NCBI GenBank assembly: GCA_018003015.1
Contig: JAGNEZ010000009.1
Span: forward strand, 62,001-126,000
Source of the DNA: Phycisphaerae bacterium
GTDB taxonomy: Bacteria; Planctomycetota; Phycisphaerae; UBA1845; PWPN01
Length of the DNA: 64,000 nucleotides
Direction: 5' to 3'
The stretch's first letter is position 1, and each line of letters begins with the position of its first letter. Below the pieces are notes generated by a model. The model worked only from the letters and a program-made list of their open reading frames with translations. It had not been told where the DNA came from and did no database searches. A program made the translations under genes and the position numbers. Shown in pieces: positions 26,730 to 58,511 of this stretch.

Positions 26730-27956
26730 CTACTTCCTCTTCCCCTTCTGTCGCTCGACGATCCCGCTCACCTTGGCAGGCAGCCCGAACAAGCGGATGA
26801 AGCCGATTGCATCGGTTGAGTCGTATTCATCGCCCATGGTAAAGCTGGCCAAGTCGGGCATGTAAAGGGAGAAGGGGCTCCTGCATCCGACCACGCGGCA
26901 GTTGCCCTTGTACAGCTTGACCCGCACCGTGCCGCTCACGTTCTTCTGCGTCGTGTTGAAGAACGCATCCAGAGCCTGGCGCAACGGTGCGTACCAGAGA
27001 CCGTAGTAGACCAGCTCCGCGTAGCGCAGGGCGACTTCCTGCTTGTAGTGGAACGTGTCGCGATCCAGGCAGACGTGCTCGAGCGACTGGTGGGCGGCGT
27101 ACAGGATCGTACCCGCCGGCGTCTCGTACACGCCGCGGGACTTCATGCCCACTAGGCGGTTCTCGACGATATCGACCTGCCCGATGGCGTGCCTGCCGCC
27201 CAGCTCGTTGAGCTTCTCGATGATCTTGACACCGTCCATCGCCCGGCCGTTGAGCCCCACGGGCACGCCGGCCTCGAAGTCGATCTCGACGTAAGCGGCC
27301 TTGTTCGGCGCCTTCTCGATCGGCACGCTCATGACCAGCATCTGGTCCTTGGGCTCGTTCCAGGTGCTCTCCAGCTCGGCGCCCTCGTGGGAGATGTGCC
27401 AGAGATTGCGGTCCCGGGAGTAGATCTTCTTCTTGGTCTGATCGACGGGGATGCCCCGGGCGCTGGCGTACTCCACGGCCGCCTCGCGGCTGCGGAGCTT
27501 GAACCGGGGGTCTTTCCAGGGGGCGATAATCTTGAGCTTGGGATCGAGGGCCATAACGGTGACCTCGAAGCGCACCTGGTCGTTGCCCTTGCCCGTTGCC
27601 CCGTGGGCGACGGCGTCGGCCCCGAACTCGTGGGCAACCTTGACCTGCTCCTTGGCGATCAGCGGGCGGGCGATAGAAGTACCCAGTAGGTACCGGCCCT
27701 CGTAGACCGCCCCGCTCTTGAGCATCGGCCAAAGGAAATCGCTGACGAACTCCGACCGCAAATCGCGAATCACGCACTCGCTCGCCCCGCTGTTGAGGGC
27801 CTTCTTGCGGACCGCCTTGAGTTCATCCCCCTGACCCAGCTCGGCCGCGAAGGCGATGACCTCGCAACCGTAGTTCTCGCGGATCCAGGGCAGAATGACG
27901 CTGGTATCGAGACCACCGGAATACGCAAGAACGACTTTCTTAGGATTCTGTGCCAT
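26730..27956 (-). CDS. argG: Argininosuccinate synthase
   Basis: A 408-residue argininosuccinate synthase, joining citrulline and aspartate with ATP in arginine synthesis. The N-terminal ATP-pyrophosphatase motif is [15 protein letters not shown]. Other family blocks are [14 protein letters not shown] (citrulline/aspartate site), [18 protein letters not shown] and [23 protein letters not shown] at 27956 follows GAGGAACATCAAA. It is the last gene of the minus-strand amino-acid cluster, 107 nt after the methyltransferase. Confidence 0.95.
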
Positions 27957-28063
27957 TTTGATGTTCCTCTTCCATCGGATCCCGTGAAAGCGGGGATTAT
28001 CCGCTCCTCGCCCGCACATGTCCAGCAGCGTGCCCCCGAAGCGTCGCCCCGCAGGTTCCACGA

Positions 28064-28876
28064 TCAGAGCGGCACGGCCTGCATCGGACGACAGTCACGC
28101 TGCCTGGCCGGTACCTTCCACGGCTTGCGTCCCCCCACCATGCACCAGAGATGGTACTTGACGAACACGTCCGCGTTCACGTAGCCGATCTCCTTGAGCC
28201 AGCGGACTTGATCCATGAACGGCTCGTGCAGATCATCGCCCTTGGTCTTCGGCCGGTCGAAACGCTCAACGTTGCGGCGTCGCCAGTTCCTGAAGTGCTC
28301 CCCCCACTGCCGGGCGTGCCCTTGCAGTTCGGGCGGCACATGGGGCATCTGCTCGTCCACGTACCGTACCCACACGTTCAGACTCCCGAGGTACGCGTCC
28401 AGGTCCAAACCCTTCATCTCGTCGGTGTTGAGCAACCAGCCGCCCTCGGCGAGGAGATCGAAACTGCGGGCATAGACCGCCCTTTTCTCGTCGGGCTCGA
28501 GGTGGTGAATGGCGGACATGGAGAAGATGACGTCCACAGGTGCCGACACGCGGCTAACCCAGTCTTCTTCCATCGGCGAGAGCACGTAGGTCACCTGGCC
28601 CCCGAACCTCGCCAGCCGTCGCCGGGCGGTCGCCAGAAACGCCTCCGATGAATCCACCCAGTAACATGAGGCACGCGGGCACACGGTCAGCATCCGCTCC
28701 AGCAACCGACCACTGCCCGCACCAAGGTCAATCACCCGCGGGCCTGCCAGCGAGACCAGATCCACCTGGCGAATCATCTCCTGCTGCAGGAACTCGTACA
28801 TGGGCACGAGGAAGGGGGCCATTTGGTCGTAATCCTCGGCCATCTGGGCGAAACGTCGCCTGTCCACTGATTGCAT
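28064..28876 (-). CDS. Class I SAM-dependent methyltransferase
   Basis: A 270-residue methyltransferase. The SAM-binding motif I is [15 protein letters not shown] (about residues 49-63), followed by the acidic strand [11 protein letters not shown] and motif [13 protein letters not shown]. The C-terminal ~100 residues ([20 protein letters not shown]) are family-specific and include a helical substrate-binding lid. The substrate is not evident. ATG at 28876 follows AAAGGAGGTATAGGC, a near-perfect ribosome site. It lies 45 nt after aroDE and before argG, but no amino-acid role can be assumed. Confidence 0.82.
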
Positions 28877-28921: not shown

Positions 28922-30517
28922 CTAGCGGCCGAGACGCTCAACGAGGTGAAGTCGAATCGTGGCGATTGGGGCGGGAATGCCGGTCCAGATCTGGAATTGG
29001 GCGGCGGCCTGATTGACGAACATCGCGACGCCGTCGATGATGCGGCAACCGCACTCTCGGGCATCGCGGAGCAACCGGGTTTCGATCGGATTGTAGATCG
29101 TGTCAAACACGACCATGTTGCCCGAGCGCGGACCACCGGGCAGCGGCGAGTCGTCCACCTTTGGCCACATTCCGATACTGGTGCAGTTCACGACCACGTC
29201 GGCCTCGAGCCGGGCGCGATCCTCCCACGGCCGTGCGGTGGCCTGGAATTCGTCAGCCAGTCCGCGGGCCTTGTCGGCGGTGCGGTTGCAGATCGTCACC
29301 CGGCAACCAGCGTCGCGCAGACCGGCCACAATTGCCCGGCTCGCTCCGCCGGCGCCCAGGACGACCACGGCGGCATCGCCAAGATCGCCCCTCCCGGCCA
29401 GGCCGGCCATCAGGGCGTCCATCGCCCCCCGGTAGTCGGTGTTGTAGGCCGAGACTCGGGCGTCGGAGCCGTCCGGTTTCGTGCCTTTCTCCACAGACAG
29501 CGTATTGGCCGCTCCGATCCGGCGAGCCAGCGGCTCGATGTGGCCGCCGCGTTCCTCAACGTAGCGCAGCAGATTCTGCTTGTGTGGAATGGTCACGCTG
29601 CAACCCCGCAGGTCCAGCCATGGCCGGCGCAGGCACCCGTCGACGAAGGCCCTGAAGTCGGCGTAGTCCGGCTCGACCCGCATGGGCAGGTAGACGCCGT
29701 TGTGGCCAACCTCGCCGAACGCCGCGTTCATGATTGCCGGACTCATCGAGTGTGCCACCGGGCAGCCGATGACGCCGTAGACACGGGTCTCGGCGTTGAG
29801 TGCGCCCCAGCGGTACGTCTCGCGCAGCTGCGAAACCGGCATCTGGCCGGGAGCGCTCTCCTGCCCCGCTTCCAAGACTGCAAACGTCAACGCCGCCCCC
29901 CACTTGCGGGCCAGAACGCGGGTGAGTATCCCAGCCTCACCCATGGACAGGGCGATGGTCGGGCGCACAGCGGCAGACGCCCGCAGGGCCTCGAGCATGA
30001 GCAGCGAATCGGTAATCTTGTTTGCCTTGCACGCCAACTTGACAACATGGGCCGGCTCACGAGCGATGTCGGCGAGAATCGATGCCGGGCCGTCGGGGGT
30101 CCTCTCGAAGTCGTGCTTGGACAGGATGAGCCGGGCGCGCGGGCGGCCGCTATCGGCATTCACATCACAGACCAGGCCGATCTTCTGGCGGATACTGGCA
30201 CTCCGCCGCCAGGCCTCATACTCGAAGTCCAGGTAATGAGCGCCGCACAGCCCGGCCAGTTCCATGAGGCTCACCCGCCGCGATTCGTCGCCTTCCCACC
30301 GGCCACCCTCCTCGGCCGGTCTGCAGGTGACGATGATCTCGCCCGGAAATGAACGGGCGGCGTCCATCAGGCCGCGGACCGACGCCAGGTCGTGATCCAG
30401 AAGGTAGTCCAGTCGCAGTTCGATCATGTCAGCATGAGCAGCGGTTGCGGCCCGGATGTCGGCGGCCATGCGCTCATACGTATTCGCTGTCAACGGAACG
30501 CAGAGCTTTGTTGTCAT
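28922..30517 (-). CDS. aroDE: Bifunctional 3-dehydroquinate dehydratase (type I) / shikimate dehydrogenase
   Basis: A 531-residue fusion catalysing two consecutive steps of the shikimate pathway: dehydration of 3-dehydroquinate, then NADPH-dependent reduction of 3-dehydroshikimate. Residues 1-240 are type I AroD, with ELRLDYL, catalytic His135 in LSKHDF, the likely Schiff-base lysine K160 in VVKLAC, and IALSMGEAGILTR. Residues 246-531 are AroE, with GCPVAHSMSP (shikimate site), TIPHKQ (catalytic lysine), AYNTDYRGA and the NADPH loop VLGAGGASRA. ATG at 30517 follows AGGTGACC. The same fusion is known from plants and some bacteria including Chlamydiae and Planctomycetota. Confidence 0.93.
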   Translation of the reverse strand: MTTKLCVPLTANTYERMAADIRAATAAHADMIELRLDYLLDHDLASVRGLMDAARSFPGEIIVTCRPAEEGGRWEGDESRRVSLMELAGLCGAHYLDFEYEAWRRSASIRQKIGLVCDVNADSGRPRARLILSKHDFERTPDGPASILADIAREPAHVVKLACKANKITDSLLMLEALRASAAVRPTIALSMGEAGILTRVLARKWGAALTFAVLEAGQESAPGQMPVSQLRETYRWGALNAETRVYGVIGCPVAHSMSPAIMNAAFGEVGHNGVYLPMRVEPDYADFRAFVDGCLRRPWLDLRGCSVTIPHKQNLLRYVEERGGHIEPLARRIGAANTLSVEKGTKPDGSDARVSAYNTDYRGAMDALMAGLAGRGDLGDAAVVVLGAGGASRAIVAGLRDAGCRVTICNRTADKARGLADEFQATARPWEDRARLEADVVVNCTSIGMWPKVDDSPLPGGPRSGNMVVFDTIYNPIETRLLRDARECGCRIIDGVAMFVNQAAAQFQIWTGIPAPIATIRLHLVERLGR

Positions 30518-30639
30518 GGGGTCACCTGCTGACTTCTTTTCCCCGGTCAACGTTGTCTCCGCCTGACCGAGGAGGCCACTTCATCCGGTATGGTCGCTGG
30601 ATGCTATCGTCAACACCCGGGCCGCTGTAGATCCCGCTG

Positions 30640-32226
30640 TCAGTCCTTGGCGGCCGCGGGCGGACTAAGCGCCTTGGCAAGCCCCCTGACGACCCGGTTG
30701 ACGGCATTGAGGAACGCCAGAGCGCTGGCTTCGATCACATCGGTGGACCGGCCGCGCCCGCGATACGATTTGCCGCGGGCCACGAGTTCCAGCTGGACTT
30801 CGCCCTGGGCGTCGCGCCCACCAGTCAAGGCGTGCAGGTCATACTCCTTGAGCACCGCATCCACGCCGGTCATGCGCAGGATACAGGTGAACGCGGCGTC
30901 GATCGGCCCGTCACCGGTGGCGGCGTCGGTCACAACCTCGTCGTTCTGGTGGTTCTTCAGACGAACGGTCGCGGTTGGCACGACGCCGGTTCCGCCAGTC
31001 GTCTGCAGGGCGACCAGTTCCCAAGCCCGGCCATCGTCGGCTTCGTCCAGGATCTGGCGGACAATCGCCTCCAGATCCTCGTCGAAGACCTCCTTCTTGC
31101 GGTCGGCCAAGCTCTTGAACTGGGCAAACACCTGATCCAGCCGGCTGTCGTCCAGATCAAAACCCAACTGCATCAGCCGCTCGCGGAGCGCATGCCGGCC
31201 AGAATGCTTGCCGAGCACCAACGTCGAGGCGGTAATGCCCACGTCCTCAGGATTCATGATTTCGTAGGTGGACCGGTGAGCGAGCATACCATGCTGATGG
31301 ATGCCGGCTTCATGGGCAAACGCGTTCTCCCCGACGATGGCCTTGTTCCGCTGGACATGCAGGCCGGTCAATGCACTTACCAGGCGGGACAGCGGATACA
31401 GCCGCTTGGTGTTGATCCGTGTCTGACACCGGAAGACGTCGGCCCGGGTGCGGATGGCCATGACGACTTCTTCCAGACTCGCATTCCCCGCCCGTTCGCC
31501 GATGCCGTTGATGGTGCACTCGACCTGCCGAGCACCCGCCCGAACGGCCGCCAGCGAGTTGGCCACCGCCAAACCCAGATCGTTGTGGCAGTGGACGCTG
31601 ATGACCGCCTTGCTGATGCTCTTCACGTTGGCGAAGAGATACTTGATGATGTCCTCGAAGTGATCGGGGGTCGAATAGCCTACAGTGTCGGGGATGTTCA
31701 CCGTCGTCGCCCCGGCCTCGATGACGGCTTCGACGACCTCGGCCAGAAAGGGCAACTCGGTCCGGGACGCATCTTCCGGCGAGAATTCGACGTCGTCGAC
31801 GAAGCCTTTGGCCAGCTTTACGCCTTCGACGCTCAGCTTGATGATCTCCTTCTCGGCTCGCTTCAGCTTGTACTGGCGGTGAATGGCCGAGGTCGCACAG
31901 AAAGCGTGGATGCGCGGCTTGGCCGCACCCTTGACTGCCTCCGCGGCCCGAACGATGTCTTTCTCCGTACAGCGGGCCAGTCCCGCGACCGCGCTGTTCC
32001 TGATCACGCCGGCGATCTGCCGGACGGCCTCGAAGTCGTCGGGCGAGGTGATGGGAAAACCGGCTTCGATGACGTCCACGTTAAGGAGCTCGAGCTGCTT
32101 GGCGATCTCCAGCTTCTGAGTGGTGTTCAACGACGCTCCCGGAGACTGCTCCCCGTCCCGGAGCGTGGTATCGAAGATGCGGATCATGGGCCGATCTTTC
32201 GTTCCCGACGGCTCGCTCGCGCTCAT
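30640..32226 (-). CDS. leuA: 2-isopropylmalate synthase
   Basis: A 528-residue LeuA, which condenses acetyl-CoA with 2-oxoisovalerate as the first committed step of leucine synthesis. The metal-binding [13 protein letters not shown] lies near residues 18-30, [18 protein letters not shown] near 205-222, and the helix [14 protein letters not shown] after it. The C-terminal ~140 residues are the leucine-binding regulatory domain ([20 protein letters not shown]), so feedback inhibition is expected. ATG at 32226 follows GGAGGTAGACAGGCC. It is preceded by a leader ORF and terminator that look like a leucine attenuator (32331-32536). Confidence 0.94.
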
Positions 32227-32330
32227 GGCCTGTCTACCTCCAACTCCCTTAGGCGTACACGTTACCCCGGGTCCACCGGGGTTACCAGCCCACCGGTCAC
32301 CCGGCGAGGCGGCAGTTGAACTCACCAACG

Positions 32331-32363
32331 AAAAAAGCCCCACGCTTGGTTGCGTAGGGCTTC
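32331..32363 (-). terminator. Attenuator terminator upstream of leuA
   Basis: On the minus strand AAGCCCTACGC (32362-32352) pairs with GCGTGGGGCTT (32345-32335): 11 bp including one U-G pair, with a 6-nt loop AACCAA. Six T follow at 32336-32331. It lies about 105 nt upstream of the leuA start and inside the leader transcript, so it would stop transcription before leuA. Confidence 0.85.
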
Positions 32364-32409
32364 TCGATTCCAGCTTCTTCTTTCGGTCAGCCGGCCGAAG
32401 ACCCTACGC
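32352..32409 (-). promoter_or_regulatory. Antiterminator pairing segments of the leu attenuator
   Basis: GCGTAGGGTCTTC (32409-32397), within the last codons of the leader ORF, is complementary to GAAGCCCTACGC (32363-32352), the 5' arm of the terminator, with one bulged T. The two pairings (antiterminator, terminator) exclude each other. A ribosome at the leader stop codon would cover most of the first segment; one stalled at the Leu codons would leave it free. Confidence 0.75.
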
Positions 32410-32500
32410 GCAGACCAACAAGCAGCAGGCCAAGGGCGAGCCCCAGCTCTGCTGCCCCGCTCACGCGCAAGGTCGAGTTATAGGCCGAAACCGACATCAT
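32387..32500 (-). CDS. leuL: Leucine-rich leader peptide of leuA
   Basis: A 37-codon ORF beginning with tandem ATG codons at 32500 and 32497 and ending in TGA at 32389-32387. Codons 19-30 encode LGLALGLLLVGL, seven leucines in twelve residues, including three consecutive Leu codons (CTG CTG CTT). There is no Shine-Dalgarno sequence. The -10 box of a near-consensus promoter ends seven bases before the first ATG, so the message would be leaderless. An in-frame ATG at 32512 lies inside the -10 box and is unlikely to be used. The peptide probably has no function of its own; its translation senses charged tRNA-Leu. Confidence 0.78.
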   Translation of the reverse strand: MMSVSAYNSTLRVSGAAELGLALGLLLVGLRVGSSAG

Positions 32501-32507
32501 ACTGGGG

Positions 32508-32536
32508 ATCATATCGGCTCGAGCCACGCTTGTCAA
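32508..32536 (-). promoter_or_regulatory. Promoter of the leuL-leuA transcript
   Basis: Consensus TTGACA (32536-32531), exactly 17-nt spacer, TATGAT (32513-32508). It is the best sigma-70-type promoter I found in the window. The predicted start of transcription is at or next to the leader ATG at 32500. Confidence 0.82.
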
Positions 32537-32661: not shown

Positions 32662-35013
32662 ATGAAACCCAGTGTGTTTGTGATGGCGGTGGCCATGACC
32701 CTGGCCGCGGGACTCCAACTGCGGGCCGAGCCCCCTTCGCATGCCCGATTGCAGGCCGTGCCCTTCACCCAAGTCCAGATCCAGGACGAGTTCTGGCTGC
32801 CGCGGATCGAAACCAACCGGAAGGTCACCCTGCCCCATAACATCAAACTGTGCGAGGACACCAAACGAATCGACAACTTCGCCGTCGCCGGCAAGAGAAA
32901 GGAGGGCAAGTTCGAGGGAATCTACTACAACGACTCCGACGTCTACAAGGTCATCGAAGGCGCCGCCTACACACTGGCTCTGCACCCCGACAAGGAGTTG
33001 GAGGCCAAGACCGATGAGATCATCGACCTCATCACCTCGGCTCAGCAGCCGGACGGCTACCTGAACACCTACTACACGCTGGTTGAGCCCGGCAAGCGAT
33101 GGACCGACCTGCCGGTCAAGCATGAGCTGTACTGTGCCGGCCACATGTTCGAGGCGGCGGTGGCCTATTGCCAGGCGACCGGCAAGCGCAAGTTCCTCGA
33201 GGCCTCCTGTCGCATGGCCGATCATATCGACGATGTGTTCGGACCGGGCAAGCTGATTGGCTACTCGGGCCACGAGGAGATCGAACTGGCCCTGGTCAAG
33301 CTCTACCGTGCCACCGGCAACGAGAAGTACCGGAAGCTGGCGGAGAGGTTCGTCGCCATCCGCGGCCAGGAGCGCAACCCGAAGGAGGAGTACCGCCAGG
33401 CCCATCTGCCGGTCAAGGAGCAGAGAGAAATCGTGGGGCATGCGGTACGGGCCATGTACCTGTACAGCGGCGTGGCCGACATCGCCGCGATGACCGGCGA
33501 CCAGGGCTACAACGATGCCATGGAGCGGCTTTGGCAGAACGTCACTGGCCGCAAGATGTACCTGACAGGCGGCATCGGGGCCGAGGCCCGCAACGAGGGT
33601 TTCTCCGCCGACTTTGACCTGCCCAACGACTCCGCCTACGCCGAGACCTGCGCCGCGATCGGCATGTGCTATTGGAACCACCGTCTGCTGCTGCTGCATG
33701 CCGACGGGCGGTTCACCGACATCCTCGAGCGGGTCATGTACAACGGGGCCCTGGCCGGCGTCTCGCTGGGCGGCGACCGGTTCTTCTACGTGAACCCGCT
33801 GGCCAGCCGCGGCGGGCACCATCGCCAAGCGTGGTTCGGCACCGCCTGCTGCCCGAGCAACGTGGTTCGCTGGCTGCCCTCGCTGGGCGGGTACATCTAT
33901 GCCCAGAACGACAAGGGCGTTTGGGTCAATCTCTATGTGGCCAGCACCGCCAAGATGACGCTGGCGGGCAACGAGGTGAGGCTGGTCCAGGAGACCCAGT
34001 ATCCCTGGTCCGGTCAGGTCAAGATCAAGCTGGAGACGGCCAAGCCCACCAGCTTCAGCGTGAATCTGCACATCCCCGCGTGGTGCGAGGCCTTCGCAGT
34101 CAGCGTGAACGGAGGGGAGATTGCCGGGGTGAAGCCGGAAAAGGGCTACCTGCCCCTCTGCCGGGAGTTCAAGAGCGGGGACGTGATCGACCTCAATCTG
34201 GCCATGCCGGCGCGGCGAGTGGAGTCGGACCCGCGGATCAAGGGCAACGTCGGGCGGGTAGCCATCGAGCGCGGCCCGCTGGTCTACTGCCTCGAGGGCA
34301 CGGACAACGCCGGCAGAGTCCGCAACGCGGCACTTCCCCGAGAAGCCAAGTTGACCGAGAAGCTGGAGCCGAAGCTGCTCGACGGGGTGGTGGTGATTAC
34401 CGCGGATGCGCTGGCGGCCGGCCGGGCCGACTGGGGTGGGGCGCTGTACGGCAAAGCGAGCGAGGCCGCCAAGGCGAAGCTGACCGCGGTGCCGTACTAC
34501 GCTTGGGACAACCGCGAGCCGGGCGAAATGGTCGTCTGGATCCCCGAGGCCACCGGCTTGGCCGAGGCGTCGCTTCCGCCGACCAAGGCAACCCGGGCCA
34601 AGGTCATCGCCTCCCGATGCTGGGAACGTGACACGGTCGCCGCGGTGAATGACGGGGCCATGCCGGCGCACTCGAACGACACCGGCGCCCCGCGGTTCAC
34701 CTGGTGGCCGAATAAGGGCACTCAGGAGTGGATCGAGTACCGCTTCGAGCGCCCCGAGATGGTCTCCTCCGCCGAGGTGTACTGGTTCGATGACTCGACC
34801 ACCCAGGGAGGCTGCCGCGTGCCGAAGTCCTGGAAGCTGCTCTGGAAAAAGGGCGACCAGTGGGAACCAGTGCAGGCCCCGGCGGGATTCCCGGTCCAGC
34901 GCGACCAGTTCAACCGGGTGACGTTCACTCCGGTACCTACGATGACGCTCCGGATCGAGGTCCAACTCCAGGATGGGATGAGCGGGGGGATTCTGGAGTG
35001 GCGAGTACCGTAG
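32662..35013 (+). CDS. GH127-type beta-L-arabinofuranosidase, secreted
   Basis: A 783-residue exported glycoside hydrolase. A signal peptide covers residues 1-22 (VFVMAVAMTLAAGLQLRAE). The catalytic alpha/alpha barrel has the GH127 zinc site: E328 and C330 in YAETCAAIGM, and C396/C397 in GTACCPSN. In the characterised family member HypBA1 the equivalent cysteine is the nucleophile. Beta-sandwich domains follow. The last ~150 residues (WIEYRFERPEMVSSAEVYWF) resemble a discoidin/F5-8C-type carbohydrate-binding module. It probably releases L-arabinofuranose from plant or algal glycans in the periplasm. The start follows CGAGGTGTCT. Confidence 0.9.
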   Translation: MKPSVFVMAVAMTLAAGLQLRAEPPSHARLQAVPFTQVQIQDEFWLPRIETNRKVTLPHNIKLCEDTKRIDNFAVAGKRKEGKFEGIYYNDSDVYKVIEGAAYTLALHPDKELEAKTDEIIDLITSAQQPDGYLNTYYTLVEPGKRWTDLPVKHELYCAGHMFEAAVAYCQATGKRKFLEASCRMADHIDDVFGPGKLIGYSGHEEIELALVKLYRATGNEKYRKLAERFVAIRGQERNPKEEYRQAHLPVKEQREIVGHAVRAMYLYSGVADIAAMTGDQGYNDAMERLWQNVTGRKMYLTGGIGAEARNEGFSADFDLPNDSAYAETCAAIGMCYWNHRLLLLHADGRFTDILERVMYNGALAGVSLGGDRFFYVNPLASRGGHHRQAWFGTACCPSNVVRWLPSLGGYIYAQNDKGVWVNLYVASTAKMTLAGNEVRLVQETQYPWSGQVKIKLETAKPTSFSVNLHIPAWCEAFAVSVNGGEIAGVKPEKGYLPLCREFKSGDVIDLNLAMPARRVESDPRIKGNVGRVAIERGPLVYCLEGTDNAGRVRNAALPREAKLTEKLEPKLLDGVVVITADALAAGRADWGGALYGKASEAAKAKLTAVPYYAWDNREPGEMVVWIPEATGLAEASLPPTKATRAKVIASRCWERDTVAAVNDGAMPAHSNDTGAPRFTWWPNKGTQEWIEYRFERPEMVSSAEVYWFDDSTTQGGCRVPKSWKLLWKKGDQWEPVQAPAGFPVQRDQFNRVTFTPVPTMTLRIEVQLQDGMSGGILEWRVP

Positions 35014-58414: not shown

Positions 58415-58511
58415 TGGCGGAGGTGAATGGGAATCGAACCCACCCAGGACCCTCATCGAGCCCCACACTGGTTTTGAAGACCAGGAGCACCACCAGGCAC
58501 CTGTCACCTCC
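58415..58511 (-). tRNA. selC: Selenocysteine tRNA, tRNA-Sec(UCA)
   Basis: A 97-nt tRNA including an encoded CCA (58417-58415). The acceptor stem has eight pairs, GGAGGTGA (58511-58504) with TCACCTCC (58426-58419), one more than ordinary tRNAs. The anticodon arm CTGGT-CTTCAAA-ACCAG gives anticodon UCA, which reads UGA. A long variable arm (TGTGGGGCTCGATGAGGGTC) and the T arm GTGGG-TTCGATT-CCCAT complete it. Layout and variable-arm sequence are close to E. coli selC. It lies between selD (26 nt) and a membrane-protein gene (24 nt), so it must be cut out of a mixed mRNA/tRNA transcript unless it has its own promoter. Confidence 0.95.

Follow-up and report, generated by a model that had tools for sequence, protein, structure and literature searches.

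We describe a leader upstream of leuA in a planctomycete genome that reads as a complete classical transcription attenuator, in which translation of a Leu-rich leader peptide is predicted to sense charged tRNA-Leu. Judged from comparative and computed evidence, the probability of this reading is about 0.9. The stretch of DNA that we analyzed, here called the window, comprises 64,000 nt of contig JAGNEZ010000009.1 (positions 62,001–126,000) from Phycisphaerae bacterium GCA_018003015.1, a 6.9-Mb assembly, and the putative attenuator occupies positions 32536–32331 of its minus strand. A close relative of this genome, the Planctomycetota MAG JAKLEZ010000007, shares 98% LeuA identity with it.

Leader elements and gene neighborhood

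The initial annotation had proposed a promoter, a Leu-rich ORF, an antiterminator, and a terminator ahead of leuA, and all four are present, base for base, where it placed them (Table 1). The promoter, with 17 nt between its two boxes, agrees with the consensus at 11 of 12 positions and is the top promoter-like site within the surrounding 12 kb. The CCGA that abuts the -10 box (32514–32517) recurs as GCCGAT in several Phycisphaerae and is possibly an extended -10 element or a regulator site. The terminator helix formed by strands 3 and 4 contains one G-U pair and is followed by six T at 32336–32331; the U-run terminator lies ~105 nt ahead of leuA. Folding of the 173-nt leader gave -88 kcal/mol (z = -5.2), a stability reached by 0 of 200 shuffled sequences. 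The initial annotation overlooked one further helix, in which GACCTTGCGCG (32474–32464) pairs with CGCGTAGGGTC; with this helix 1:2, the textbook three-helix arrangement is complete in the window leader.

Table 1. Features of the leuA leader and neighboring genes in the window
Feature	Position	Strand	Details or evidence
-35 box TTGACA	32531..32536	-	TTGACA/TTGACG in 10/10 family leaders
-10 box TATGAT	32508..32513	-	CCGA just before it in 9/10 family leaders
Leader peptide ORF, 37 codons, MMSVSAYNSTLRVSGAAELGLALGLLLVGLRVGSSAG	32387..32500	-	ATG at 32500, TGA at 32389–32387
Strand 1, GACCTTGCGCG, partner of strand 2	32464..32474	-	Minimum free energy fold; duplex z -2.4
Regulatory codons 19–30, LGLALGLLLVGL	32411..32446	-	7 Leu in 12 codons, two of them rare CTT
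Strand 2, GCGTAGGGTCTTC, antiterminator 5' arm	32397..32409	-	TAG inside
Strand 3, GAAGCCCTACGC, common to antiterminator and terminator	32352..32363	-	
Strand 4, GCGTGGGGCTT (32345–32335), and U-run; intrinsic terminator with strand 3	32331..32345	-	
GGAGGT, likely Shine-Dalgarno of leuA	32236..32241	-	Sequence
leuA, 2-isopropylmalate synthase	30640..32226	-	HMGL-like, post-HMGL, and LeuA dimerisation domains
aroDE fusion (type I 3-dehydroquinase and shikimate dehydrogenase), gene after leuA	28922..30550	-	Domains; adjacency in relatives
Methyltransferase, possible operon member	28064..28876	-	
argG, possible distal operon member	26730..28061	-	Order matches sister species L014

Downstream of the leader, the same-strand gaps separating leuA, aroDE, the methyltransferase gene, and argG measure 89, 45, and 2 nt. 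An aroDE match adjoins leuA in eight loci of the window's family (L001, L003–L005, L008, and L010–L012) and is not beside it in L006 and L007 (genus g7); a weaker match adjoins leuA in several planctomycetes outside the family. Linkage of argG to leuA is seen only within the window's genus, in the sister species. A divergent GH127 gene begins at 32662 on the plus strand. Elsewhere in the window, a tRNA-Sec gene lies at 58415–58511 on the minus strand, so this planctomycete may make selenoproteins.

The ATG of the leader ORF starts 7 nt past the -10 box, a spacing that had also escaped the initial annotation. It leaves no space for a Shine-Dalgarno sequence in front of the ORF, and transcription would be expected to begin with the A of the ATG or right beside it (near 32500), making the leader mRNA probably leaderless. 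In the wider set of leaders, 48 have a promoter with at least 9 of 12 matches, and the ATG follows the -10 box by 6–10 nt in 25 of these. A genome-wide pattern search found an ATG 5–9 nt after a -10 box at 45 sites, against 7 for the reversed-pattern control, which suggests many leaderless mRNAs in this planctomycete, for example at L237 (trpE), L230, and L229; the sites described individually are the first 30 of the 45. The trpE gene has a promoter at its own ATG and is apparently leaderless, which leaves no space for a leader peptide before it.

Candidate leaders were also seen at ilvB. Upstream of the second ilvB copy (L256, G000:C5; L257, G009:C2) lies a leaderless short ORF ending VPSLVLVVR*, whose stop TAG falls in TTAGGCCGCTGG, a segment that pairs with CCAGCGGCC (CCGGCGGCC in L257). 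In L257 a hairpin and TTTTC precede the gene, and we regard the region in both loci as a candidate ilv attenuator. Across the family, the main ilvB copy (L244–L255) has a strongly conserved 5' UTR that contains GGCCGG-N-GCCGG-N-GCTC elements and carries AACCTATTGGAAAGGAGAAAACCATGG at the start codon; it has no match in Rfam and is a possible unnamed cis-regulatory RNA.

Conservation, covariation, and distribution

In the window's family, leuA is present in 12 of 13 genomes, and two of them (G002 and G008) were left unjudged, the leuA match being partial or running off the contig. The whole layout is kept in all 10 intact upstream regions, which represent eight genera and include the window: TTGACA or TTGACG, the -10 box, an ATG 7–8 nt on, a Leu-rich peptide, a G-rich strand 2, the stop codon, the terminator, and the U-run.

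The initial annotation had suggested aligning the leuA upstream regions of relatives, and this comparison revealed that the Leu codons are kept and that both stems carry compensatory changes. For covariation scoring, strands 2, 3, and 4 were aligned as a 17-row block of leaders from the window family, L095, Phycisphaerae, and relatives, with L094 excluded on account of a bulge in its terminator. In these blocks, which were anchored by hand on conserved cores (a procedure that favors core pairing, not matched substitutions), 90% of the cells of helix 2:3 and 88% of those of helix 3:4 are paired. Covariation in helix 2:3 was 0.301, compared with 0.143 for shuffled alignments (0 of 500 as high) and at most 0.098 for slid partners; for helix 3:4 the corresponding values were 0.405, 0.220 (0 of 500), and at most 0.134. 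Changes on both sides were found at 8 of the 13 pairs of the terminator helix. Since strand 3 belongs to both helices, the substitutions are three-way across strands 2, 3, and 4. Columns 3-21-26, for instance, read G-C-G in most rows of the window family and U-A-U in the majority of the other rows. In L009 and L010, columns 7 and 17 changed jointly while column 30 kept its G, and the altered stems still pair. Helix 1:2 is clear in the window, L007, L011, and L016, and weak in the other leaders (median z about -1).

For the wider survey we collected 149 planctomycete leuA upstream regions, a few of them near-duplicates; they came from 392 Planctomycetota genomes, from searches at order and family level, and from a single scan of public genomes. 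In 74 of these regions, leuA is preceded by a short ORF in which 12 codons include at least 6 Leu; the same test gave 16 of 149 for the next residue, Arg. Among 228 regions ahead of other genes, just 2 have such a Leu-rich ORF, and the rate in Markov-1 control sequences is 2.7%. A count of at least 5 Leu in 12 codons proved too permissive, with 14% of Markov controls passing. Demanding 5 or more Leu together with an intrinsic terminator, and removing doubtful and duplicate cases, yielded a set of 74 leaders (68 planctomycete), a number that equals the ORF count by coincidence. Within this set, pairing of a leader's own strand 2 with its own strand 3 beats shuffled sequences at p ≤ 0.05 in 61% of cases, and strand 2 prefers its own strand 3 to those of other species (mean rank 0.157 compared with 0.5 expected). 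At leuA of several lineages no Leu-rich leader is present; the Brocadiaceae locus L020 is one example.

The layout extends, with sequences of its own, to five loci from Verrucomicrobia, Kiritimatiellae, and the PVC group, as in LLLLLREG* followed by GGCGTGTG and ACACCCGCC. About 8 of 30 loci in a further Verrucomicrobiota sample have it, in some cases with a lower number of Leu codons. In the Verrucomicrobiota loci L272, L273, L277, L285, L286, and L300 we noted leucine leaders whose U-run terminators differ in sequence (e.g. CCCACCGC...GCGGTGGG). In other phyla, 3 of 53 loci reach the Leu threshold and only one has a terminator. Outside the PVC group, the Deltaproteobacteria MAG locus L081 carries a Leu-rich leader, NLALNLLSLLGLALLCLL, with a terminator and an antiterminator ahead of leuA.

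Many planctomycete leaders have their stop codon TAG as part of strand 2, in the form TCG TAG GG in Phycisphaerae and TCT TAG G in others, so that a terminating ribosome would sit on the antiterminator. In the window family this TAG is out of frame inside GTA GGG (Val-Gly), and the reading frame ends ~20 nt further downstream; one family member, L011, still stops at the TAG of strand 2. We give even odds to an evolutionary reading of this pattern, in which leucine attenuation of leuA would be an old trait of Planctomycetota, perhaps of the whole PVC group, independent of the proteobacterial leaders. Its design would be a leaderless peptide with the stop TAG placed in the antiterminator strand, so that the ribosome blocks antitermination, and in the window's family the frame would have shifted and the stop moved ~20 nt downstream.

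Ribosome position, codon usage, and alternative readings

In the proposed mechanism, RNA polymerase would initiate at the leader ATG or next to it, and a ribosome would then engage the leaderless 5' end. When leucine is scarce, the ribosome would stall at Leu codons 19–27 and leave strand 2 free to pair with strand 3 ahead of strand 4 synthesis, allowing read-through into leuA and, probably, into aroDE. With ample leucine, the ribosome would advance to the stop region and cover strand 2, strands 3 and 4 would pair, and the transcript would end near 32331 after ~170 nt. In an untranslated leader, strand 1 would take strand 2, and termination would again be expected. Within this model, where transcription starts, how ribosomes occupy the leader, how efficiently transcription terminates, and how leucine alters the outcome are inferred.

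We modeled these states by folding the RNA downstream of a ribosome positioned at each codon, with 12 nt covered from the A site and the transcript stopped before strand 4. The computed antiterminator of the window leader is full with A-site codons 6–27, declines over codons 28–33, and has dropped to 0.00 by codon 34, where it stays up to the stop. The earlier proposal that a stall at the Leu codons frees strand 2 and that a ribosome at the stop codon covers most of it agrees with the calculation, in which helix 2:3 forms at codons 19–27 and is absent from codon 34. Six other leaders (L006, L008, L016, L024, L127, and L041) fold like the window at their Leu codons and near the stop. In naked window RNA, strand 1 sequesters strand 2 and so keeps the antiterminator value at 0.02, whereas the naked RNA of L006, L008, and L016 favors the antiterminator, indicating that helix 1:2 is not general and that the state without translation is uncertain across the family. 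At full-length equilibrium the terminator is still partly formed with a stalled ribosome, which means that the switch has to be decided kinetically, as known attenuators are.

CTT and CTA account for 31% and 14.5% of Leu codons in the leaders, compared with 4.9% and 0.2% in the LeuA genes of the same genomes. This enrichment of rare codons fits a sensor of tRNA-Leu charging and is poorly explained by peptide function or RNA structure alone.

The first alternative, which we consider improbable, is that regulation acts on translation, or that the leader senses a protein in the manner of the actinobacterial LEU element, whose Leu codons base-pair with the ribosome-binding site of leuA. It has a published precedent among attenuator-like leuA leaders: classical attenuation failed mutational tests for that element, and Streptomyces leuA shows that such a leader need not work in the classical way (PMC1262725). 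The LEU element likewise has a Leu-rich leader ORF ahead of leuA but, by its published description, combines a pseudoknot with the Leu codon pairing, whereas the planctomycete leader has a U-run terminator and strands 2:3:4 (PMC1262725). A strong U-run terminator ~105 nt before leuA, the recurrence of terminators in the 74 leaders, and the rare-codon enrichment, which points to ribosome speed as the signal, all argue against this alternative.

Slightly less probable again is a functional product: the Leu-rich ORF would code for a small protein of membrane or signal-peptide-like type with a role of its own, the hairpin would simply be its terminator, and leuA would have a separate promoter downstream. 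The peptide is hydrophobic and the terminator does follow its stop codon. However, the peptide is unconserved except for the Leu run and the codons overlapping strand 2, and the sister species differs from the window ORF at four positions, three of which change the amino acid and none of which removes a Leu codon. The rare-codon enrichment and the covariation of antiterminator with terminator also speak against a protein product as the reason for the ORF, and the interval from the terminator to leuA contains no promoter-like site with at least 9 of 12 matches.

A tRNA-binding T-box or a translation-independent leucine riboswitch is very improbable: T-boxes control leu operons elsewhere, but Rfam returned nothing beyond chance-level matches for the window leader at E up to 10 and no family at gathering score for 20 related loci, the T-box model RF00230 matched neither, and the Leu-coding run would be left unexplained.

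Relation to known leaders and biological meaning

Attenuation by ribosome stalling is our preferred reading, and its nearest counterpart is the enterobacterial leuABCD attenuator (RF00512), which likewise places a Leu-rich peptide and a mutually exclusive antiterminator and intrinsic terminator ahead of leuA. That attenuator also uses rare Leu codons, as the planctomycete leader does. The planctomycete leader differs in belonging to another phylum, in being probably leaderless, in having its stop codon inside strand 2 in many relatives, and in the lack of a covariance-model match: the Leu_leader model was unmatched by the window leader at E up to 10 and by the 20 related loci at gathering score. 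Candidate attenuators at actinobacterial ilvB and leuS have the same peptide, antiterminator, and terminator parts but differ in gene, lineage, and sequence (PMC1262725). The histidine leader peptide upstream of hisS/hisZ in bacilli is an attenuator outside Proteobacteria and Actinobacteria, for a different amino acid and in a different lineage (PMC2965389).

Naville and Gautheret (2010) stated that leader-peptide systems had previously been found only in Proteobacteria and Actinobacteria and added Firmicutes (PMC2965389), and Sun et al. (2013) suggested a gammaproteobacterial origin for amino acid attenuators (PMC3766115). Korolev et al. (2016) counted short leader ORFs in Planctomycetes, with a leucine attenuator undescribed (PMC4833913). 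The initial annotation knew of no planctomycete case, and none turned up in the open-access library that we searched, in agreement with PMC2965389. The mechanism appears to be that of a textbook leu attenuator; the lineage, the leaderless start, and the placement of the stop codon in the antiterminator appear to be new.

A leucine leader across Planctomycetota and part of Verrucomicrobiota and Kiritimatiellota would alter the picture of such systems as confined to Proteobacteria, Actinobacteria, and Firmicutes and as gammaproteobacterial in origin. It also gives planctomycete genomes a regulatory element and a set of small ORFs missing from their annotation. Planctomycetota were once argued to separate transcription and translation by a nucleus-like compartment. 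Attenuation of the kind proposed here would imply that transcription and translation are coupled on the leuA operon in this phylum.
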